Origin: an uncultured bacterium
GTDB taxonomy: Bacteria > UBP6 > UBA1177
Assembly: GCA_905235605.1 (NCBI GenBank)
Contig: CAJOMF010000029.1
Span: 1 to 46,073, forward strand
Direction of reading: 5' to 3'
Length of the DNA stretch: 46,073 bases
Each line of letters begins with the position of its first letter. Within the stretch, counting starts at the first letter, position 1. Below, one piece after another: positions 23,860-46,008 of the stretch. Both the position numbers and the translations under genes were made by a program. A model generated the notes under the pieces. That model did no database searches. It had not been told where the DNA came from and was given only the letters and a program-made list of their open reading frames with translations.

Positions 23860-26115
23860 ATGTTGATAAAGTTTATTAAGAATAAAATCGGTAATGATTT
23901 AAATACTTTTTCCGATGTCAGAAACGGTGCTCTCAACAATCTGGATAAATTTCTGATCCTCTTCACCGTCGTTTTGTGCGCTCTGCTCTACATCCCGATG
24001 CTCGGCAACTTTTTTATGATCGATCCGTGGGAAAACCACTATTCGCATGTTGCGTGGGAGACTCTGGAGAACAATTCTTTCGCAAAGCTGTGGTTCCAGC
24101 ATTCTAACAAGTTCTGGTCGAAGCCGCCGCTTCTTTTCTGGATGCTGATGCCGTTCTACAAGTTCAATATTTCCGAGTTTTCGGGAAGACTGCCTATCGC
24201 TTTGTTTTCGATAATCTCTTTAGTCGGTTTCTACATTCTTCTGACGCGGCTGATTTCGCGAAAATCTGCAATAATTTCAACATTTGTTCTTATGCTTTCA
24301 CCTCAGTATTTCATGCTTTCGCGTCAGATCATGGTCGATCTTCCGTTCGTCGCGCTCAACACTATTGCGATGCTCTGTATGACGGTCTACTACTTCGGAA
24401 ATATCGGAACTGATGAGAAAATATTCAAAAAAATCCCGCGAAGTGATTTTTATCTTTATCTTTTCTATTTTTTCGAAGGCTGGGCATTCCTGGCGAAAGG
24501 TCTTCTTTCGATCCTGATACCAGGCATTGCACTTTTCGTTTTTATGGTTTTTTCGCGTAATTTCAGCTGGTTTTTCGCGTGGAGACACCTCAAAAAACAC
24601 CTTATAGGAATGCTTGTTTATCTTGCCGTCGTCATGCCGTGGTTCGGTTATATGTGGATAAGCGAAGGAAAAAGTTTCTTTGACACTTTTATTATTTATC
24701 ACCACTTCAAAAGAACTACAGGCGAAATCCATAAGCCGAACGATCTCTACACGCTTTATGTCAGGATACTGGGCTATGCGATGTTCCCGTGGAGCGCTTT
24801 CCTTCCGGCTGCACTTTACAATTTTTTAACTAAAAAAGAGGAAGATTCAGAAAAAACCAAGAAACTTTTCTTTTTCAGCTCGTTCATAGGACCTTTTCTT
24901 TTCTTCTCTTTTTCATCGACTAAATTTTATCACTACATTGCGCCTGTTGTTCCGTTTCTTGCAATATTTTCAGGTATTTATATTGAAAAATTGTGGAGTG
25001 AACGCTGGACTCTTGCGACAAAAGTCGAAGCCGTTATTTCAATATTTTTAGTTGCTGCGATCGGGCGGGACATCGGTGACAAACACGTTCTTTTCCTTCA
25101 CCTCGTAACTTTCTACAACACAAGAAAAATTCCTGTTCAGGCTTCCTGGGAACCTGTGATAATTTCAGTTTTTGCTGTTTTCTGCTTCATAATTTTCCTA
25201 ATGATTTTGAACAAAAATCTGCAGAATAAAGGTTTTTATATCCTTTTTGCGCTCAGTGCAGGATTTATGACTTACTACTTTGCAGAGCCGCTTCCGCAGA
25301 TTTCAAAATATTATTCTTTAAAACCTCATGTTGAAGCCTATCTGAAGGACAGTCCTGAGAGAGCGCCGATTGCTGACTATTACAAATGGTTAAGAAAATC
25401 AGCAGGTTTCTGGCTTAAAAACGAGATAACTTTTTTGCAGACAGACAAGGAAAAAAATGTCATAAGATTTTTTGACAAACCGGGTATTCAGTATGTGATC
25501 CTTCGTGACAACGATAAAAAACGCTTTGAAACGCTAATGAAAAGAATAAACAAAAAAACAGTTGTCGTTTACAGCGGAGCTAAAAATACACTGCTAAAAG
25601 TTTTTGGAAAAGGTCAGGAGCGCGATATATCTAAAGCTGGCGGATACATCGTTCAAAATCTTCCTGAAAACTTAATAAAATCAAATGTTATTTTTGATAA
25701 TGCAATAAAATTGGAAGGTTTTGTAATTGACAAAAAAAATATAACGGAGCGCGATGGAAAATTCTTTGCAAAAGAAGGATCAACAATCAATATAGACCTT
25801 TATTTCAGATCTATTACCGACAAAATCAATAAAGATTACGATGTTTTTCTCCACAATGAAGGCAACAACAAAGACAAAAGGACAAAAGGTGACGGAAACA
25901 TGGCAAACGGCACTTACCCGACTGATTTCTGGAAAAAAGGTGAAACCATCAGACATCCGTTAAAAATAAATATACCTAAAGGGTCAAAAAACAATTATTA
26001 TATTGCATACACCGGCTTATATCAGGAAGAGTACAGAGCTAATATAACAAACAAAAATGAAGTAAAGGAAAGCGACAACAGAGCTGAACTTATTAAAATT
26101 TACCTCGACAGGTAA
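23860..26115 (+). CDS. Integral-membrane glycosyltransferase, GT39/ArnT (PMT-like)
   Basis: Multi-TM; FMIDPWENHYSHVAWE, SNKFWSKPPLLFWM, FSGRLPIALFS; RBS GTGGAG before ATG 23860. Confidence 0.85.
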   Translation: MLIKFIKNKIGNDLNTFSDVRNGALNNLDKFLILFTVVLCALLYIPMLGNFFMIDPWENHYSHVAWETLENNSFAKLWFQHSNKFWSKPPLLFWMLMPFYKFNISEFSGRLPIALFSIISLVGFYILLTRLISRKSAIISTFVLMLSPQYFMLSRQIMVDLPFVALNTIAMLCMTVYYFGNIGTDEKIFKKIPRSDFYLYLFYFFEGWAFLAKGLLSILIPGIALFVFMVFSRNFSWFFAWRHLKKHLIGMLVYLAVVMPWFGYMWISEGKSFFDTFIIYHHFKRTTGEIHKPNDLYTLYVRILGYAMFPWSAFLPAALYNFLTKKEEDSEKTKKLFFFSSFIGPFLFFSFSSTKFYHYIAPVVPFLAIFSGIYIEKLWSERWTLATKVEAVISIFLVAAIGRDIGDKHVLFLHLVTFYNTRKIPVQASWEPVIISVFAVFCFIIFLMILNKNLQNKGFYILFALSAGFMTYYFAEPLPQISKYYSLKPHVEAYLKDSPERAPIADYYKWLRKSAGFWLKNEITFLQTDKEKNVIRFFDKPGIQYVILRDNDKKRFETLMKRINKKTVVVYSGAKNTLLKVFGKGQERDISKAGGYIVQNLPENLIKSNVIFDNAIKLEGFVIDKKNITERDGKFFAKEGSTINIDLYFRSITDKINKDYDVFLHNEGNNKDKRTKGDGNMANGTYPTDFWKKGETIRHPLKINIPKGSKNNYYIAYTGLYQEEYRANITNKNEVKESDNRAELIKIYLDR

Positions 26116-27128
26116 AAAACTTCTATATCATTGAAATTATTGATATTCTCTATTGAACTAGTCATCAGTATCTGATTTTTCAAAGTCTCTATTTCCTTAA
26201 AAAGCATCTTTTTGGTCTCATCATCGACAAAAACGAAAATATCGTCTATGAGAAATATAGGAAATTCGTTTTTTTCGGCGTAAATACTGATTTCCGCAAG
26301 TTTTATCAGAAATGAAGTTATGTAAGTTTCACCCATCGAAATGTTGTTTTTGGCATTTCCGACTTCTGTCGTGATATTTATATTGTCAAGATGCGGTCCG
26401 TAAAGCGAAAAGCCTTTTTCAAGCTCTTTTTCAAGCCTTGAATCAAGTTTTTCAGCGCAGTTTTCATCTGTATTGTAAGTAAAGAAAACTTTCATTTCTG
26501 AAAAGAGTTTTTCCAATAAAATAGAGACTTTTTTATTGATTGTTTCACATGAAACATTCCTTTTTTTCCTTATCCTGTCAATAAGAGGTGCTGCCGCCGC
26601 ATTCAGATACTTGACAACTTCGGCATTTTTGTCTTTAAGAGCTGCATTTTTGTTTCTGATGTATCTGATGTATTCGCTCATGTCGTCAAAATAGCTTTTG
26701 TCTTCAATAAAACAAATCCTGTCTATAAAATCTCTTCGGAATTTAGGGCTTCCGGTGATTATAAACATGTCATCAGGAGAGTGAACGACAGGATAAGCTA
26801 TATTCAGAAGGTCTTTTCTTGAAGAAACATTGCCGTCAATTATTATTTTTTTATTTCCTTTTCTGTCGCAACCAACTGAAACTTTTCTGCTGTAACTTTC
26901 AAAATCATCAAAATCCGACTCAATATAGAAATTATGACTTTCTTTTGAAATGCAGTCCTTTATGTCGAAAGTTTTGAAGGATCTTCCGCTTGAGACAACA
27001 AAACAGGCTTCAAGGATAGAAGTCTTTCCTGAGCCTGTTTTTCCTTTTATAAGCAGTTTCTGAGGCAGATTTATAGAAAAATCGGATAAAGATCTGAAGT
27101 TGGATATGAAAACTGAGTTTATTTTCAT
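26100..27128 (-). CDS. recF: DNA replication/repair protein RecF
   Basis: MKINSVFISNFRSLSDF, LIKGKTGSGKTSILEACFVVSSGRSF, HSPDDMFIITGSPKFRRDFID, FLIDDIFVFVDDETKKM; follows dnaN. Confidence 0.93.
   Translation of the reverse strand: MKINSVFISNFRSLSDFSINLPQKLLIKGKTGSGKTSILEACFVVSSGRSFKTFDIKDCISKESHNFYIESDFDDFESYSRKVSVGCDRKGNKKIIIDGNVSSRKDLLNIAYPVVHSPDDMFIITGSPKFRRDFIDRICFIEDKSYFDDMSEYIRYIRNKNAALKDKNAEVVKYLNAAAAPLIDRIRKKRNVSCETINKKVSILLEKLFSEMKVFFTYNTDENCAEKLDSRLEKELEKGFSLYGPHLDNINITTEVGNAKNNISMGETYITSFLIKLAEISIYAEKNEFPIFLIDDIFVFVDDETKKMLFKEIETLKNQILMTSSIENINNFNDIEVFYLSR
26541..26556. promoter_or_regulatory. parS-like site TGTTTCACATGAAACA
   Basis: 15/16 to the known bacterial consensus TGTTTCACGTGAAACA; within recF. 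Confidence 0.75.
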
Positions 27129-27132
27129 AAAA

Positions 27133-28284
27133 TCAGATTCTGAGAGGCATGATCATGTGAACATAGAAGAATTCTTCAGTTTCTTCTTTCAAAGTCATAG
27201 GTTTATTAGCAGCTTCTTCAACTATTACGTTTACATTGTTATCATCTATAACATTGATTACATCAAGGAAGTATTTAGCATTTACAGCAACGCTTCTTTC
27301 AGTTGAAAAACCTTTTTCAATAACTATTTCATCAGTTGAAGTTCCGCCTGTATTTGAATTTGCTGTGAGTTTAAGAACATTTCCATTGAAGAAATACTTC
27401 GAAACCCACATTTTGTCTTCTGAATTAAGGACGATAACTACACGTTTTATTGCCTCTATAAGCTCCTTTCTGTTTGCAACTGCAAATTCTTTTCCGTTAA
27501 GAACTTCATAAGTTCCGATTATAGGACGGTGCTTAGGAAATTCATTTTTGAAAAGTCTCGAAATAAATATAACATTTTCATTCTTTATAAACATTTTTTC
27601 GTCGTCTATGGCTACATAAGCATCCTCGACATCAGCAAAAATTTTGGTTATTTCAGCAAAATTCCTTCCGGGAATAACTATTCCGCTTTCAAATTCAGGA
27701 ATATCCATATTGAAATTCTTGAGCATAAGTACAGAAAGTCTGTGAATATCAGTAGTTACCATATCAACAGTCTCTGTTCCGTCATCATTTTTTACTTTTA
27801 TGATAAGAACTCCTGAATAAGCCTTAGTCATATAATTTTCAGTCATTGAAAACTGAACTTTCTTGTAGGAAGAAATAAGCCTGCTTATTTTTACAGGTTT
27901 ATATTCTTTTGAAGTATCTGAAATTTCAGGGAAATCTGACGGATTAAAGCATGGGACCTTATATTCTGATTTGTCTGCTGTTATATCAAGAACATTGTTG
28001 GATTCGTTATACTTGAATATTATATTTTCAGCTTTTGAAAGACGGCATATATCATGAATGGATCTTGCAGGAACTGCTATTTTTCCTTCTTCTACCGATT
28101 CTTCGAGATTTACCTTTGCTAAAACTGTTATCTCGAGATTTGTAGCACTGAGAGTGCATTCTCTGTCTTTAAAGCTGAAAAGAACACTGGTAAGAACAAC
28201 CATCGTATGTTTCTTTTCTACACACGAACTGCAGTAATCAAGAGCCTTGAGAAGTTCATCCTTTTTGAAAGTTAATTTAGTCAT
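27133..28284 (-). CDS. dnaN: DNA polymerase III beta subunit (sliding clamp)
   Basis: MTKLTFKKDELLKALDYCSSCVEKKHTMVVLTSVLF..., C-terminal MTLKEETEEFFYVHMIMPLRI; lies between recF and dnaA. Confidence 0.95.
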   Translation of the reverse strand: MTKLTFKKDELLKALDYCSSCVEKKHTMVVLTSVLFSFKDRECTLSATNLEITVLAKVNLEESVEEGKIAVPARSIHDICRLSKAENIIFKYNESNNVLDITADKSEYKVPCFNPSDFPEISDTSKEYKPVKISRLISSYKKVQFSMTENYMTKAYSGVLIIKVKNDDGTETVDMVTTDIHRLSVLMLKNFNMDIPEFESGIVIPGRNFAEITKIFADVEDAYVAIDDEKMFIKNENVIFISRLFKNEFPKHRPIIGTYEVLNGKEFAVANRKELIEAIKRVVIVLNSEDKMWVSKYFFNGNVLKLTANSNTGGTSTDEIVIEKGFSTERSVAVNAKYFLDVINVIDDNNVNVIVEEAANKPMTLKEETEEFFYVHMIMPLRI

Positions 28285-28460
28285 AATTCTCTCCTTAATT
28301 AAAAAAACAATTATAAATAACCTTTGTTATAATGTTTAAAGACGATAAATTGTCAATAAAAACATGGTAGTTGTAAAACTTTTCAGTGTTGAAAAAAATG
28401 TTTGTTTTTTGTGGTCTTTTCATGGTCTTAGTTTTTCAACATACTAATTTTCAACATTTG
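28285..28460. other. oriC: Candidate oriC (AT-rich dnaA-dnaN intergenic region)
   Basis: Three TTTTCAACA DnaA-box-like 9-mers (28387-28395 reverse, 28433-28441, 28448-28456), each one mismatch from TTWTNCACA. Confidence 0.45.
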
Positions 28461-29801
28461 TTATAAACTCTTTCCTGAGCTTTCGATTTCTTTGCTCAAT
28501 TTCGTAACAAGTTTAGATATCTGCTCATCATCAAGTATGAGTTTTTCCACGTTTGAAACTGATGTTATTATTGTGGAATGATCTCTTCCGCCGAATTTTT
28601 CGCCTATTTCCTTAAAAGTCTTCGAAGTATATTTTCTAGCCAGATAAATAGCTATCTGTCTTGATATCGATATTCCTTTTGTTTTTTTCTTCGAAATAAT
28701 TTCAGAATGCTTAACTTTCGTGGCTGTAGAAACTATTTTTATTATATCTTCAATTTCTGTCGGTTGTTTTTTTATAGTATTTTTAAGGGTACTTTCAGCA
28801 AATTTAAGATCTATAACTCCGTTTCCTATAAATTCATGATAAATTTTAAGAGTATTTAAGGCACCTTCTATTTCACGTACATTGTTTTTCAGGTTTGAAG
28901 CTATGAAATCAGCTACTTCATCTTCTATTTTCATATCGTAAAGTTCTGATTTCTTTTTGATTATAGCTACTCTTGTTTCGTATTCAGGCGGAATTATTTC
29001 AAGGGTAACACCCATTGAAAAACGTGATCTGAGTCTGTTGTCTATGTCGTTTATTTCTGTTATGTGTTTATCAGAAGTTATAACTATCTGTTTTTTCTTG
29101 TCGTAAAACTGGTTGAAAATATAGAAAAATTCATTCTGAGTACCTGATTTTCCGGATAAAAACTGAATGTCGTCTATAAGAAGAACATCATTTTTAATTA
29201 TTTTTTCCCTGAAGTCTGAGATTGTCTTTGATTCAATAGCTTTAATATAATCTATTAAAAGCTGGTTCGTAGTCGAATAATAAACTTTTTTATGTTTGTT
29301 GTTTACGATGTAGTTTCCTATAGCCTGTATTATGTGAGTTTTTCCCAGTCCTGAATCACCGTATATAAAAAAAGGATTATAACCTGTTCCTGGATTTTTT
29401 GCTATAGCCTGTGCTGCAAGATAAACGCCGGCATTGGAAGGACCCATTACGAAATTATTGAATGTATAATCTTTATATTTTTCATATTCATCAGTAATTT
29501 TACAGCTGGTTTTGTCTGTTTTATCTTCGTTTTTGAAATCAAATTCAAGCTGCAGATCTTTTTCTTCGTTTTCTGGAACTACTATGAACTGGACTTCTGT
29601 ATTTTCATCAAAAAGAGTCTTAGCAATTTTTTCTATTTTGGATAAATAGTTATTTTTCTTAAGAAAATTATAAGCATATTTACTTTTGCAGTTTACAATT
29701 ATTTTTTCTCTTGACTCTTCTTTGGGATAAAGAGCGTCAATAAAAGTATTTATCTCATTATTATTGGTCTTTTTGAGCTCTTCTACTATTGTTTTCCACA
29801 T
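28461..29801 (-). CDS. dnaA: Chromosomal replication initiator protein DnaA
   Basis: NPFFIYGDSGLGKTHIIQAIGNY, DVLLIDDIQFLSGKSGTQNEFFYIFN, C-terminal KFGGRDHSTIITSV. ATG at 29801 preferred. Confidence 0.97.
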   Translation of the reverse strand: MWKTIVEELKKTNNNEINTFIDALYPKEESREKIIVNCKSKYAYNFLKKNNYLSKIEKIAKTLFDENTEVQFIVVPENEEKDLQLEFDFKNEDKTDKTSCKITDEYEKYKDYTFNNFVMGPSNAGVYLAAQAIAKNPGTGYNPFFIYGDSGLGKTHIIQAIGNYIVNNKHKKVYYSTTNQLLIDYIKAIESKTISDFREKIIKNDVLLIDDIQFLSGKSGTQNEFFYIFNQFYDKKKQIVITSDKHITEINDIDNRLRSRFSMGVTLEIIPPEYETRVAIIKKKSELYDMKIEDEVADFIASNLKNNVREIEGALNTLKIYHEFIGNGVIDLKFAESTLKNTIKKQPTEIEDIIKIVSTATKVKHSEIISKKKTKGISISRQIAIYLARKYTSKTFKEIGEKFGGRDHSTIITSVSNVEKLILDDEQISKLVTKLSKEIESSGKSL

Positions 29802-29883
29802 TATGCCCTCTTGCATCTTCCAAAATTTCCAGCTATTTTGTCAAATATTCGTTACTTTTCAAGAAAAAAATAGTTTTTGAGAT

Positions 29884-40176: not shown

Positions 40177-43008
40177 TTACGCAGCCGAAGCGTTGGCATT
40201 GACTTTATCTATCACTTTGCGGATGCCGAGCCATAGGGAAGTGTCGCTGAAGACTTCCACGATGCTGCCGCGGTCGGTAAACGGTGCTTCCTGAAGGACT
40301 GAAAGGTCTTTCATCATGCCGTTGTGAACGATGTATTCCACGATCTGGTTGACGAAATAGATCTGGCGGCTGTCAAGGCTGGTGTTGTTCAGAAACTCAG
40401 CGAAAGCCTCTTTTGCCGCGTTCATGTCGAGTCCTACGATTTCACGCACGAATTCGCCGAGCGGTTTCGCTTTATACAAAGCTTCGTAATCTTCCCTGGT
40501 TCCGGCTTCGCTCCAGAGTATCGCCTCGAGATCGGTCATATCTTTGCCTGTGAGAGGAAGATTGCTTTTGAGTTTGGCGATGACACCTTCGTTCTGGTGC
40601 TTGCGGACAAAGTATTCCGCCCGTTCGCGGTAAGTTGTGAGATAGGTAGTTTCGGCTTCTGCGACGCTCCATTTTGTCGAAAGCACTTCGTCGCTGAAAT
40701 TCGTGTCGTATAGACTGTGCGAATAGTTGACATACGTCATCAGATTGCGCAGATTTATGCGGATCTCCTCAAATTCCATGATTCCTGCGGTATCAAGGTA
40801 ATATGTGTGGAGGATTTTGTTTATAAGTTCTGACTGCATCATAATTGCGGGAATATTGGCGATATTTGCCACGGCATTCACCTTTTTCATGAGGTCGTTC
40901 CGTGCCGCGCCGTATTTGTTTCCTGCTAATAATGCAAGCTCTATTCCGTAAAGAAGGGCATCGAAACGCAGTGCTTTGACATCATCGATGTCGGGCTGGA
41001 TAAGCGGCACGAGTTCGCGCTTCATGTTGAGTGTCTCTTCGTAAGTCAAAGCGTTGTAGTTTTCAGGGTTTGAATAGAGTTCGACATATTTCAGATGCTG
41101 TCTTACGGCGAAATTGCCGCGGTCGAGTTCGCGCACTTTTTTAACCATTTCCTCAACCAGTTTTTTGCGGAAAGCGATGAGTTCAGGTGTCTGCCAGATG
41201 ATCTCCTGAAGTTTGAAGGCGATCTGCGCTTTGAGAAGGAAAAGAGCCCCTTGCAGAGCCACAGTGTCAGCACTTGCCCGCCCTTTGTTCATGCGGAAAA
41301 ACTCGAAGTTCCCGCAGAAATCGAAGATGTAGAACTTTGTCTTGTCAAATCCGTCGATAAGTCCCTGGCATAGGCGTGTTCCGCGTCCTATCATCTGCCA
41401 GAATTTTGCTTTGCTGAGAACGACTTTGAAGAAAACCAGATTCAGCACTTCGGGGACATCGATTCCGGTATCGAGCATATCGACTGAAATGGCTACCTGC
41501 GGCAGTTTTTTTGCGTCAGAGAACTCGTCGATCGCGCTCTGGGCATAGTTTATGGTGTTGTCGATCACTTTGGCGTAGTTGTTCAGGTGGGGAAATTCCT
41601 TTCCGAAAACTTCGAGGATTTTTTCTGCGTGTCTGTGGTTTTTTGCAAAGATGATCGTTTTGCCGATTTTGCTGTTGTAGTCGATTTTAAGTCCGTCGTT
41701 CATCAGGATGCGCAGAACTTTTCGGATGGTGTCTTCGTTGAAGATCCAGTCGTTCAGTGCTGACGGTGTGATGCTTTCGGGGATTTCGCCGCTTTCATCG
41801 GCAAAAGTCTTTTCGTATTCCTCTTTTTCTTCATCGCTCAGTTCGTCGTAAACTATTCCGCGCTGGATGAATTTGAGTGTCGTTTCGACTGAAAGAAAAT
41901 CGACCAGATAGCCGTCTTTTACTGCCTGCGCCAGCTCGTAACCGTAAGTCGGAACGCCGTTTTCAAGCTCGAAAACCTCGTAGGTGTTTTTGTCGATTTC
42001 GTCTTTAGGTGTCGCGGTGAGACCTACGAGCGGAGAATCGAAGTAGTTGAAAATTTCCTGATATTTGTTGTAGATCGAGCGGTGCGCTTCGTCGCAGATC
42101 AGAAGGTCGAAGTGTCCGCAGGAAAAGACTCTTCCTTCTTTGTCACGCACTGAATCGATGCAGTTTATCATTGTCTGGTAAGTCGAAAAGACGCAGTGAG
42201 CTTCGATGTTGCATTTTTCTTCGCAGAGATTTGTGACAGAAAGATCGGGCAGAAGGTTCACAAAGCTGCGTTTCGCCTGGGTCACGAGGGAATTTCTGTC
42301 TGCGAGGAAGAGGACGTTTTTGATCCAGCCCTTGTCCATCAGCACTTTTACGAGTGCGATGACGGTTCTTGTTTTGCCGGAACCTGTCGCCATGACAAGG
42401 AGAGCCTTTCTGCGGTTTTTCTCTCCGAAACTGTCGCATACCGCTTTTATTGCAGCTTCCTGATAGTAACGTCCGGCAATATTTCTATCCGCCATAATGT
42501 TTTTCAGGCTGCTGCGCATCCGCTGGAGATTGAACCACTTTTCAAGATCACGTTTCGAATAGATCCTTGCGACCTTCCGCTCAGGATACTGGTTGTCAAC
42601 GATCCGTGTCTCGAAACCGTTTGAAAGAAAAACAACCGGGCGGAATCCCTGCTTCTTCTCAATCAGATCGGCGTAAAGTTTTGCCTGCTGTCTCCCTTTT
42701 GAAACATCAACGCAGGTGCGTTTCGCCTCGATTACGGCAAGGATGCGGCCGTCGTCACCAAACAGCGCATAGTCGGCAAAACCCACTTCCGACTTGTTCG
42801 GCATACCAGGGAGTTCGTATTCGTTGAGCCAGTTTTTTCCCTCTATCCAGCCGTCATCACGCAGCATCGTGTCGATGTATTTTTTGCGGGTCTGGCCCTC
42901 TCCGTCACCGCTTGCTGCGGTGACACCTCCCCCTGAGTGGGAGGCAAGGCTTGGCTGCGCAGCAGACTGAGAGGGGTTCTCTGAGGGATTCTCTTTATCA
43001 TTGTTCAT
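40177..43008 (-). CDS. hsdR: Type I restriction enzyme R subunit (HsdR)
   Basis: N-terminal nuclease GFADYALFGDDGRILAVIEAKRT; VMATGSGKTRTVIALV; LLICDEAHRSIYNKYQ; VGLTATPKDEID; GRGTRLCQGL. Confidence 0.95.
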   Translation of the reverse strand: MNNDKENPSENPSQSAAQPSLASHSGGGVTAASGDGEGQTRKKYIDTMLRDDGWIEGKNWLNEYELPGMPNKSEVGFADYALFGDDGRILAVIEAKRTCVDVSKGRQQAKLYADLIEKKQGFRPVVFLSNGFETRIVDNQYPERKVARIYSKRDLEKWFNLQRMRSSLKNIMADRNIAGRYYQEAAIKAVCDSFGEKNRRKALLVMATGSGKTRTVIALVKVLMDKGWIKNVLFLADRNSLVTQAKRSFVNLLPDLSVTNLCEEKCNIEAHCVFSTYQTMINCIDSVRDKEGRVFSCGHFDLLICDEAHRSIYNKYQEIFNYFDSPLVGLTATPKDEIDKNTYEVFELENGVPTYGYELAQAVKDGYLVDFLSVETTLKFIQRGIVYDELSDEEKEEYEKTFADESGEIPESITPSALNDWIFNEDTIRKVLRILMNDGLKIDYNSKIGKTIIFAKNHRHAEKILEVFGKEFPHLNNYAKVIDNTINYAQSAIDEFSDAKKLPQVAISVDMLDTGIDVPEVLNLVFFKVVLSKAKFWQMIGRGTRLCQGLIDGFDKTKFYIFDFCGNFEFFRMNKGRASADTVALQGALFLLKAQIAFKLQEIIWQTPELIAFRKKLVEEMVKKVRELDRGNFAVRQHLKYVELYSNPENYNALTYEETLNMKRELVPLIQPDIDDVKALRFDALLYGIELALLAGNKYGAARNDLMKKVNAVANIANIPAIMMQSELINKILHTYYLDTAGIMEFEEIRINLRNLMTYVNYSHSLYDTNFSDEVLSTKWSVAEAETTYLTTYRERAEYFVRKHQNEGVIAKLKSNLPLTGKDMTDLEAILWSEAGTREDYEALYKAKPLGEFVREIVGLDMNAAKEAFAEFLNNTSLDSRQIYFVNQIVEYIVHNGMMKDLSVLQEAPFTDRGSIVEVFSDTSLWLGIRKVIDKVNANASAA
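42897..42979. repeat. Palindromic element within the 5' end of hsdR
   Basis: CCCTCTCCGTCACCGCTTGCTGCGGTGACACCTCCCCCTGAGTGGGAGGCAAGGCTTGGCTGCGCAGCAGACTGAGAGGGGTT; shares blocks with 43371-43519. Confidence 0.9.
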
Positions 43009-43363
43009 CGCTCATTCTCCTTTTGACAACATTGTCAATGTGTTCGCATACAACTGCAAATTGTGTATCGACTTCAATATTTGAGAAACGAAGCACTTCA
43101 AGTCCGTATCCTTCAATAATCGCCGTCCTTTCCGCATCATAAGCCAATCCCTGCTCATCATAATGCTGAGAACCGTCAATCTCAATTACCAGTTTTGCAG
43201 CACAGCAATAAAAATCGGCGATAAAAGATTCAATTATCCGCTGCTTATAGAACTTTACAGGATAATTTCTCAAAAACATATACCACAATTTTCGTTCCTG
43301 CGGAGTCATTTCGCGTCTCAGTTCCTTCGCTCTTTCAAGCATTTTATTGTTTTTAGGAATCAT
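42998..43363 (-). CDS. DUF559 (Vsr-like) endonuclease-domain protein
   Basis: RAKELRREMTPQERKLWYMFLRNYPVKFYKQRIIESFIADFYCCAAKLVIEIDGSQHYDEQGLAYDAERTAIIEGYGLEVLRFSN. Confidence 0.93.
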   Translation of the reverse strand: MIPKNNKMLERAKELRREMTPQERKLWYMFLRNYPVKFYKQRIIESFIADFYCCAAKLVIEIDGSQHYDEQGLAYDAERTAIIEGYGLEVLRFSNIEVDTQFAVVCEHIDNVVKRRMSDEQ

Positions 43364-43370
43364 GTGTTAG

Positions 43371-43519
43371 CCCTCTCCGCCGCTTTGCGGCACCTCTCCC
43401 TGAGTGAGAGGCAAGTCGCCCTCTCCGTCTGCTTTGCAGCCACCTCTCCCTGAGTGAGAGGCAAGAAAACTTGGCTCCCACTTTGGGGGAGCTGTCACGA
43501 AGTGACTGAGAGGGGTTCT
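43371..43519. repeat. Array of three palindromic-element blocks
   Basis: 43371-43415, 43419-43465 (both CCCTCTCC...CACCTCTCCCTGAGTGAGAGGCAAG) and 43470-43519 (CTTGGCTCCCACTTTGGGGGAGCTGTCACGAAGTGACTGAGAGGGGTTCT). Confidence 0.93.
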
Positions 43520-43541
43520 ACAATTTTAATGAGTTCTATTA

Positions 43542-43775
43542 TTTTCTCCGAACTTTTCTCCGAACTTTTCTCCGAACTTTTTACCGTACTTTTTACCGTA
43601 CTTTTCACTATACTTTTCACTGTACTTTTCACTGTACTTTTCTGTGAACTTTTCTGCGAACTTTTTTGGGTAGTTTTTTGGGTAGTTTGGGTAGTTTTCT
43701 GGGTAATTGTTTTAGTTTTCTCCACAGTTTTTCACCCTAGTTTTTTGATTTTCTACCCTAGTTTTTTCGCATTTG
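43542..43775 (-). repeat. Degenerate 12-bp tandem array; minus strand encodes a (T/S)VKS, SSEK, TTQK-type linker; probable gene remnant
   Basis: TTTTCTCCGAAC, TTTTTACCGTAC, TTTTCACTGTAC, TTTTCTGTGAAC, TTTTTTGGGTAG series; minus-strand ORF 43495-43725 TQKTTQKSSQKSTVKSTVKSSEKSSEKIIELIK. Confidence 0.8.
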
Positions 43776-43848
43776 TCTTGGTAGTTTCTTGGTGCTTCTG
43801 CCAAAAGAAGCAATAACTGCCGCTGTTTCACGGATATGTGACCAGCTT

Positions 43849-43915: not shown

Positions 43916-45376
43916 TCAAACAGATTGCCTGAATTTATCTAACAAATGTTCTTGCATCAAAACTATATTCTCTTTTTCAACATAATGGTATATAGACGCA
44001 ACAATAATCTGGTTGTCAGGAAAATCTCTTTTAAGAATTTGCATCATTTTATCAATATTTAACCCATCTATCTCTTTTCCTTTCGGAGAATCCAGAATTA
44101 TCGGCAATTTAATGCCTAGAGCTTTTTCAATTTCTAAAATATAAGCCAAACGAAAAGAAAAAACTGTGTTGTGTAAGATTGCTCCAGATAGTTCTTTCAG
44201 ATTGCTGGTAAAGAGATATCTCCATGATATTTTTTCTGCATCTGGCACTTCCAATTCTGCCATATACTTTTGAACAGTTTTTATCATAGTTTGAGTAACA
44301 GAATTGTTATTATTGGTAAAATCAGAAATTTGTTTTGTTAACAATCTTTTTTCACCTTCTAATTTACCAATAATACTTTTAACATCTTCTGGGAAAATAT
44401 CGATTGTTGACATTTTTTTATCAAAACTGTCCGCCAAGGATTCTGTTTCAAAAAAAGATTGCTGTTGTTCTTCATTTTTAACTGCGAGTTGCAATTTTTC
44501 CAATTCTTTTAAAACTTCATTCATCTGCGGTATCAATGTTTTTTTCTTGGCTTTGAGCAGTTCAATACAATCATTAGCACCGACAATCATATCAGAGGTT
44601 ACACACACATTTTCACCTGTGTTTAACTGGATAACAAGCTTCATGCCTTCAATCAATTCTATTGTCTTTCGATTGCTTTTCATGAGATTATTCAAGCGTT
44701 TAATTTCTTTTTTCAGTGTATCTCGTTCAACCTTTAGTTGATCAATTTTTAACAATCGTTCACTATCATAATTAAGTCCAGTAAGAGAATTCTGATCAAC
44801 AACAATTTTGTCACGATATTCTGCAATATTTAAGATATGGCGATGCTTTTTTAAGCTTTCTTCAACCTTGCGCTTTTTCAAAATAAGATTATCACAGTTT
44901 CTATCTGACAAGCCCCTTATAAGTTCATTAATATTGAATCTTATACCAGCTATTACTTTGCCTCGATTTAAAAGCGTCCAGCCTTTTTCCTGATCGGCAT
45001 AAAATGCCCCAAGTAAATTATTCAGAATATCTACATTCCTTGTTCCAAATAATTTCTCGTGCAGTTCAGACAATTGAGTAGGCAATGCATACGAATACTG
45101 CTCTTCTCCTTTTAATAATTCTATATAATCTGGTTTTTTTCGTTTTAGTACCAACTCTGAATTATCATCTTTTTCTAAAACTAGTTCAATTGAAGTGGTT
45201 TCCATACGAAAATTTTTAGTCCCTGGAATATTATACCCCAAACCATATAAAACACATCTCAAAAGAGTAGTTTTACCGGTGCTATTTTTTTTACTAAAAA
45301 CCAAATTAAACCCTGATTTAAAGGTTCTTTCTGTATACAACAGTCCTTGTTCAATGAGAATGGTTTTTATTATCAT
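43916..45376 (-). CDS. SMC/ABC-like ATPase, DUF2326-type
   Basis: NLVFSKKNSTGKTTLLRCVLYGLGY (Walker A), central coiled coil, LSGAILHNTVFSFRLAYILEIEKALGIKLPIILDSPKGKEID (signature/Walker B). Confidence 0.8.
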   Translation of the reverse strand: MIIKTILIEQGLLYTERTFKSGFNLVFSKKNSTGKTTLLRCVLYGLGYNIPGTKNFRMETTSIELVLEKDDNSELVLKRKKPDYIELLKGEEQYSYALPTQLSELHEKLFGTRNVDILNNLLGAFYADQEKGWTLLNRGKVIAGIRFNINELIRGLSDRNCDNLILKKRKVEESLKKHRHILNIAEYRDKIVVDQNSLTGLNYDSERLLKIDQLKVERDTLKKEIKRLNNLMKSNRKTIELIEGMKLVIQLNTGENVCVTSDMIVGANDCIELLKAKKKTLIPQMNEVLKELEKLQLAVKNEEQQQSFFETESLADSFDKKMSTIDIFPEDVKSIIGKLEGEKRLLTKQISDFTNNNNSVTQTMIKTVQKYMAELEVPDAEKISWRYLFTSNLKELSGAILHNTVFSFRLAYILEIEKALGIKLPIILDSPKGKEIDGLNIDKMMQILKRDFPDNQIIVASIYHYVEKENIVLMQEHLLDKFRQSV

Positions 45377-46008
45377 AGGGAAACCTCCTTTCTGATTTTT
45401 TCTATTCGATATCGTTGGTGAATTATTTTTGCCAACACTATTTTTGCAACACCTTCTTGAATATCAGTTGGCAATGAATTTAGAGAGAGTATTTCAACAT
45501 AATCTTCCCATTTGTTTTCGACAAAACAACTAACTCTTTCTTTCCACGGTAAAGATTGGTTTTCTAAATTATAATCAAAAAGAACTTGCGTCACAATGTC
45601 ATATTTTTCGGTACAATTGCTTATTAATTCAGAATATCGTTGGTTTATCTCTGCTATCAATCCCTCATCATAATCATTGATATAATCTGTTGGTAAATCT
45701 TTCCCCAAAGTAAGAGCTATCACAGGCCAAACAATATCTTTTTTATTAACTCTTATTGATGTGGCTATTTTAGACCCGTTATGAAAGATATCGTTTTGCC
45801 AGATTGTCATTAATTGAGTCGAATTTATAATGTGTCCTAGCTCCAATTGATTTAAGAATTGCTGTATTTTTTCTTCAATAACTTTGTAACGTTCTTTATT
45901 ATTATGGTTCAGTCCTAAATTCTGTGGGATAGTCGAAAAGTGTAAAGATTTTTGAGAAAAAAATAGAAAAAGATAGGATTCATCCTTAAAATCTTTTTGA
46001 CAAAACAA
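45373..46008 (-). CDS. Uncharacterised partner of the SMC-like ATPase; start uncertain
   Basis: 4-nt overlap with the ATPase ORF; no ATG in the N-terminal third (TTG-initiated in the ORF track). Confidence 0.5.
   Translation of the reverse strand: MFCQKDFKDESYLFLFFSQKSLHFSTIPQNLGLNHNNKERYKVIEEKIQQFLNQLELGHIINSTQLMTIWQNDIFHNGSKIATSIRVNKKDIVWPVIALTLGKDLPTDYINDYDEGLIAEINQRYSELISNCTEKYDIVTQVLFDYNLENQSLPWKERVSCFVENKWEDYVEILSLNSLPTDIQEGVAKIVLAKIIHQRYRIEKIRKEVSL

Follow-up and report, generated by a model that had tools for sequence, protein, structure and literature searches.

A Lamassu-type (PDC-M46) two-gene operon probably inactivated by an ISL3-family element in its effector gene

Results

The window analyzed in this study is one whole contig of 46,073 bp (G000:C29) from an assembly of 2.67 Mb in 136 contigs with 96% completeness. 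Two neighboring open reading frames (ORFs) were found on its minus strand, namely B and an upstream ORF at 45373-46008, and the stop of the latter overlaps the start of B (Table 1). A previous sequence-only reading had described a two-gene unit with a 4-nt overlap, located next to the DUF559 and HsdR genes and more AT-rich than its surroundings. All of these points held. Both ORFs share the ATGA overlap, both neighbors adjoin the unit, and the GC content of the native unit is 31.3% versus 42.0% for the window, which places it in roughly the bottom 2% of 2-kb stretches. The only other equally AT-rich stretch of the window is dnaA-dnaN-recF; there, recF-like, dnaN, and dnaA genes lie consecutively at 26100-29816 with 31-35% GC, and this is likely the replication-origin region. 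A promoter and terminator scan of the AT-rich unit gave somewhat more matches than the shuffled expectation. PDC-M46B was present in one of the 19 genomes of the genus and family, i.e., the source genome alone, and the M46 pair was not found in the 18 other genomes searched. This absence, together with the AT-richness, fits horizontal acquisition of the pair.

Table 1 Features of the window around the M46 pair.
Feature	Position	Strand	Evidence
HsdR, EcoAI-type, neighbor downstream of the unit	40177..43008	-	78% identity to HsdR of relative L013
DUF559 (Vsr-like) small protein, neighbor	42998..43363	-	PF04480, E 1.5e-29
Degenerate 12-nt tandem repeat between the unit and DUF559	43495-43810 (including 43542..43700)		
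PDC-M46B (B), SMC/Rad50-like LmuB-type ATPase, 486 aa, full length	43916..45376	-	PADLOC, motifs, AlphaFold
B Walker A	S28-K-K-N-S-T-G34-K35-T36-T37		
B putative Q-loop and family motif YADQEKGWTLLNRG	residues 126-139		
B signature LSGA	residues 396-399		
B Walker B	LPIILD429-S430		
Overlap of A stop and B start, ATGA	45373..45376	-	sequence
C-terminal half of PDC-M46A (A; codons ~158-335, after the nuclease domain), 5' truncated	45373..45905	-	PADLOC
Left end of ISL3-family IS, terminal GGTTCAGTCCTAAATTCTGTGGGATAG, cut by the contig end	45906..46073	+	terminus repeated on other contigs
Transposase start ATG of the window IS	46028		

Subsequently, the two proteins were examined separately. B was matched by the PADLOC profile PDC-M46B over residues 1-481 (E 4.8e-170, profile positions 1-478 of 483), whereas the LmuB profiles of PADLOC matched it far more weakly (best E 3.8e-19). 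Pfam gave AAA matches only, all of which were sub-threshold. When an 11-sequence profile of B was compared with solved structures, a single relative was obtained, LmuB 9ux7 (E 7.7e-10); phmmer searches of single proteins against the PDB gave nothing informative. An AlphaFold model of B (mean pLDDT 83.5) had 9ux7_A, annotated as "LmuAB-DNA complex", as its best PDB fold match (E 2.1e-15), followed by a Bacillus subtilis YydD model, other LmuB chains including Salmonella LmuB, and Rad50/SMC heads. Whole-chain TM-scores to Lamassu are only about 0.4; hence, the case for homology is built on profiles, motifs, and the fold at the level of domains. The SMC-like ATPase of a candidate conflict or defense system proposed earlier is accordingly supported, as a PDC-M46B protein with LmuB relatives by both profile and fold.

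The same reading had typed this ATPase as DUF2326 and had proposed looking for a third component beyond the contig. The second-best fold match of B (9a6c_A, E 5e-12) is the YydD model, which we take to be a DUF2326 protein, and it would suit an ABC-three-component system whose other components are out of view. However, Pfam returned no DUF2326 match in B at E<=1, and PDC-M46B fits the full length. Furthermore, the relatives examined, including nine viral contigs and the annotated plasmid and phage relatives, are two-gene units with no middle component (in L024, A extends over two ORFs), and no third component is expected. The DUF2326 label was therefore abandoned, and we give a three-component system next to no probability.

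The P-loop S-x-x-N-S-x-G-K-T-T and the SGA signature are conserved across the M46B relatives, as is a Walker B motif with S, not E, after D. The segment D-Q-[ED]-K-G-W-T-L-L-N-R-G after the putative Q-loop is invariant in M46B, and no CxxC hook was found in B or in the M46B motif comparison. LmuB 9ux7 has a P-loop (S-K-G-N-T-K-G-K-S) and a Walker B (M-D-S) of the same kind as B. These results indicate that the atypical Walker A (SKKNSTGKTT), which had been recognized previously and is indeed present, is a property of the branch common to two-component Lamassu LmuB and not a defect.

The upstream ORF had been regarded as an uncharacterized protein of about 200 aa. Instead, it is a chimera, in which only 45373-45905 is native. 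This portion was matched by PDC-M46A of PADLOC (E 1.4e-50, profile positions 158-335 of 335) and shows 66% and 56% identity to the C-terminal halves of A from L013 and L014, respectively. The first ~35 codons are IS DNA, and the start codon, TTG at 46008, lies within the IS; the partner is thus an effector stump with an IS-derived N-terminus. A weak Cas6b/Holin/Cas5 signal was also obtained for A and was dismissed as chance.

No full-length PDC-M46A gene lies directly upstream of B. A breaks off at 45905/45906, exactly where a repeated ISL3 end stops, and this end replaces the rest of the gene. The GGTTCAGTC-type terminus also occurs on six other contigs, each time with unrelated flanks; five of these copies are near-identical and one is diverged, and all save the diverged one are located at contig ends or no more than a few bases away. 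The diverged full copy (L008, contig C16) encodes a DDE_Tnp_ISL3 transposase (E 8.7e-40) and is bordered on both sides by 8-bp direct repeats, AATTTCAT. A protein search of the assembly found no further ISL3 transposase copies. The element belongs to the ISL3 family by its DDE transposase, the shared terminus, and the 8-bp target duplication, the last being known from the L008 copy only; the window site shows one IS flank, and the repeats expected around the IS there are ATTATTAT. No other damage was seen in B or in the remainder of A, and their frames are open, so that the insertion was probably recent.

The contig runs out 168 nt into this multi-copy element, in an assembly of 136 contigs from which the far flank is missing. 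These circumstances would also be seen if A were intact in the organism, or in most of its cells, and the contig end stemmed either from a minority variant with the IS or from a join made at the repeat during assembly. However, the junction coincides exactly with the IS terminus and has a unique flank, as at the six other copies, which is expected of a true insertion. In addition, the N-terminal half of A was absent from the assembly when it was searched with the PDC-M46A profile, with the N-terminal part of L013 A, and for the expected junction of the IS right end and the target repeat. We therefore consider an intact A unlikely. As the assembly lacks the second IS flank, there may have been a rearrangement, or the population may be mixed and include some intact cells.

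Goat-gut Oscillospiraceae MAGs, together with an Oscillibacter MAG and one distant genome, contain relatives of B with 71%, 65%, 46%, and 40% identity; others are on nine viral contigs, eight Lactobacillaceae plasmids, and one Ruminococcus phage. A search of 193 genomes gave one distant match and the source genome itself, and two single-protein scans of viral contigs gave no match. In all nine viral-contig relatives, one nuclease ORF lies directly upstream of B and overlaps its start, and the annotated plasmid and phage relatives have the same two-gene A-B pair. Complete A in the relatives is about 330-360 aa; the exceptions are L012, in which A is cut by the contig start, and L024, in which the gene is split. 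In the latter (Leuconostoc citreum, NZ_CP042394.1, 1815-3004), the A region consists of two ORFs (840 + 339 nt) before B, which represents either a frameshift or a natural division into effector and docking genes. L023 (PV036414.1:1011-3517) lies close to one end of the 71.5-kb genome of a Ruminococcus phage and comprises complete M46A and M46B genes, all annotated as hypothetical; this phage carries a Lamassu-like system.

The N-terminal domain of A in the relatives shows the pattern G-x-x-[FY]-Q ... E-G ... [ED]-D ... Q-x-K of Cap4/DUF4297 endonucleases, and the catalytic pattern E38..[ED]D43..Q57-x-K59 is retained in all 11 aligned full-length sequences. The A proteins of Lactobacillaceae are above the Pfam cut-off for Cap4_nuclease (PF14130, E 2e-7), and A of L015 matches LmuA (E 8.9e-7). 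An alignment profile of A gave no useful match in the PDB, whereas that of B gave one. The fold of full-length A was modeled from L014 (pLDDT 81.8). Among its fold matches, the DNA-bound nuclease tetramer of Salmonella LmuA ranked first; a second LmuA entry and a HerA-DUF assembly came next, and Cap4 was a little lower.

The enzymatic Cap4 domain is thus present beside LmuB in intact relatives and absent from the window copy. Of the earlier description "minimal or truncated", truncation is confirmed, with A cut at 45905/45906, and minimality is not, as intact relatives carry the nuclease half. Likewise, the remark that no obvious effector is present is correct for the nuclease, but the effector is A itself, which has lost that half. 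A true minimal system, with a short partner and an SMC-like ATPase functioning without a nuclease, would account for both remaining frames being open and for the retained overlap. However, the relatives in which the whole A gene is visible carry the N-terminal nuclease with conserved catalytic residues, the window ORF begins in IS DNA, where its TTG start lies, and no homologue with a short A was found. Such a system is extremely improbable here.

Damage was also observed in other copies. The M46B gene of the closest relative (L013:6001-7461) is interrupted in frame by a TAA at codon 291, and its remaining frame is open and conserved. B of L035 is frame-broken, and a 108-aa relic of B was found in Massiliimalia (L016:6001-6291). 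Several M46 copies (the window, L013, L035, and L016) look inactivated.

Discussion

The window unit is very likely an inactivated two-gene Lamassu-type (LmuAB-like, PDC-M46) defense operon in which A was broken by an ISL3 element, as indicated by the gene identities, the truncation point, the IS junction, the intact architecture in relatives, and the folds. It represents a known type in damaged form and not a new minimal system; what appeared to be a minimal effector-less SMC system is corrected to an IS-broken operon of this type.

In Lamassu, sensing is likely the role of LmuB, and LmuA is the effector, which works by abortive infection (PMC10586767, review). LmuA is freed on activation and forms a tetramer, by which its Cap4 domain is activated (preprints described in the review PMC12409362). 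From the homology to Lamassu, we infer a corresponding course of sensing, sequestration, and release in intact M46. Intact A would be a Cap4-type PD-(D/E)XK dsDNA endonuclease whose C-terminal domain docks on B, and B would form a short Rad50/SMC-like dimer that keeps A silent. By analogy, B may recognize abnormally structured DNA of an invading phage or plasmid, upon which A would be released, assemble, and cut DNA, so that the infection is aborted. The ISL3 element presumably entered A at codon ~158, so that the nuclease domain was cut off from both the docking domain and B. As the effector half is separated from the docking half, no restriction is expected of the window copy, and the system is probably inactive in the source genome.

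A different possibility is that the insertion is a reversible or selected switch, with LmuB and the docking domain kept without the effector and precise IS excision restoring the nuclease. The effector-less LmuB and LmuA docking domain could then, with no lethal effect on the cell, bind DNA or sequester LmuA from other systems. We regard this as highly unlikely.

PDC-M46 is a PADLOC candidate two-gene system of Payne et al. and is a prediction; in one earlier study, a PDC-M46 call coincided with a Lamassu call (PMC11811056). In the papers examined, we found no test of PDC-M46 antiviral activity. The window copy resembles PDC-M46 in B over its whole length, in the A stump, and in gene order, and differs in that the ISL3 end stands in place of the nuclease half. 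With the two-component (type I) Lamassu LmuAB of 9ux7, it shares the Rad50-like ATPase, the non-canonical P-loop, the D-S Walker B, and an effector gene directly before LmuB with no LmuC or other middle gene. However, B is about 75 aa shorter than 9ux7_A (562 residues), with a whole-chain identity of about 15%, and typical LmuB is about 560-650 aa; KGWTLLNRG is invariant in M46B, whereas 9ux7 has only FYIDQDDSW. Lamassu type II/DdmABC (Cap4 LmuA + LmuC + LmuB) has the same Cap4-type nuclease effector, and an LmuA tetramer tops the fold matches of intact A, but M46 has no LmuC and M46B lacks the CxxC zinc-hook motif. The Cap4 effector of CBASS is similar in its N-terminal dsDNA endonuclease domain (PF14130 in relatives; fold); in M46, by contrast, no SAVED domain was identified, and no cyclase gene was found among the neighbors examined. 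Taken together, the relatives support including PDC-M46 within Lamassu, where it would form a two-gene type with a Cap4 nuclease and a short LmuB. If the intact relatives are active, they would provide compact Lamassu models on small lactobacillus plasmids and a Ruminococcus phage.

The present unit also adds a case of such a pair beside type I hsdR. In the window, the pair lies 5' of hsdR; in L013, it is flanked by hsdS and the HsdR gene. The two HsdR proteins are 78% identical over 908 aa. Window HsdR begins at position 199 of the L013 homologue and is therefore without the ~200-aa N-terminal domain found in L013. Neither hsdM nor hsdS is on the window contig, and a search of the source genome for a matching hsdM gave five N6_Mtase genes, none of which was tied to this contig. 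The hsdS-hsdR interval has been described as a potential hotspot for guest defense genes (PMC12255303), and another embedded pair is known in a Vibrio cholerae type I cluster (PMC11411939). The guest pairs DarTG2 and TgvAB are alike in position to M46, beside hsdR as in the window or in the hsdS-hsdR gap as in L013, but are different systems.

Two kinds of repeats were observed near the unit. The minus-strand reading of the 12-nt repeat, TTQKTTQKSSQKS...EKIIELIK, resembles the C-terminal linker of SLFN/AlbA_2 regulators, and the region is possibly a relic of an SLFN/AlbA_2-type gene. On contig C14 (L021), an SLFN_AlbA_2 gene is followed by a similar repeat beside hsdM. A 25-nt repeat, CACCTCTCCCTGAGTGAGAGGCAAG, occurs twice at 43391-43465, just upstream of DUF559, and its 18-nt core has one further occurrence in the genome, on C18.
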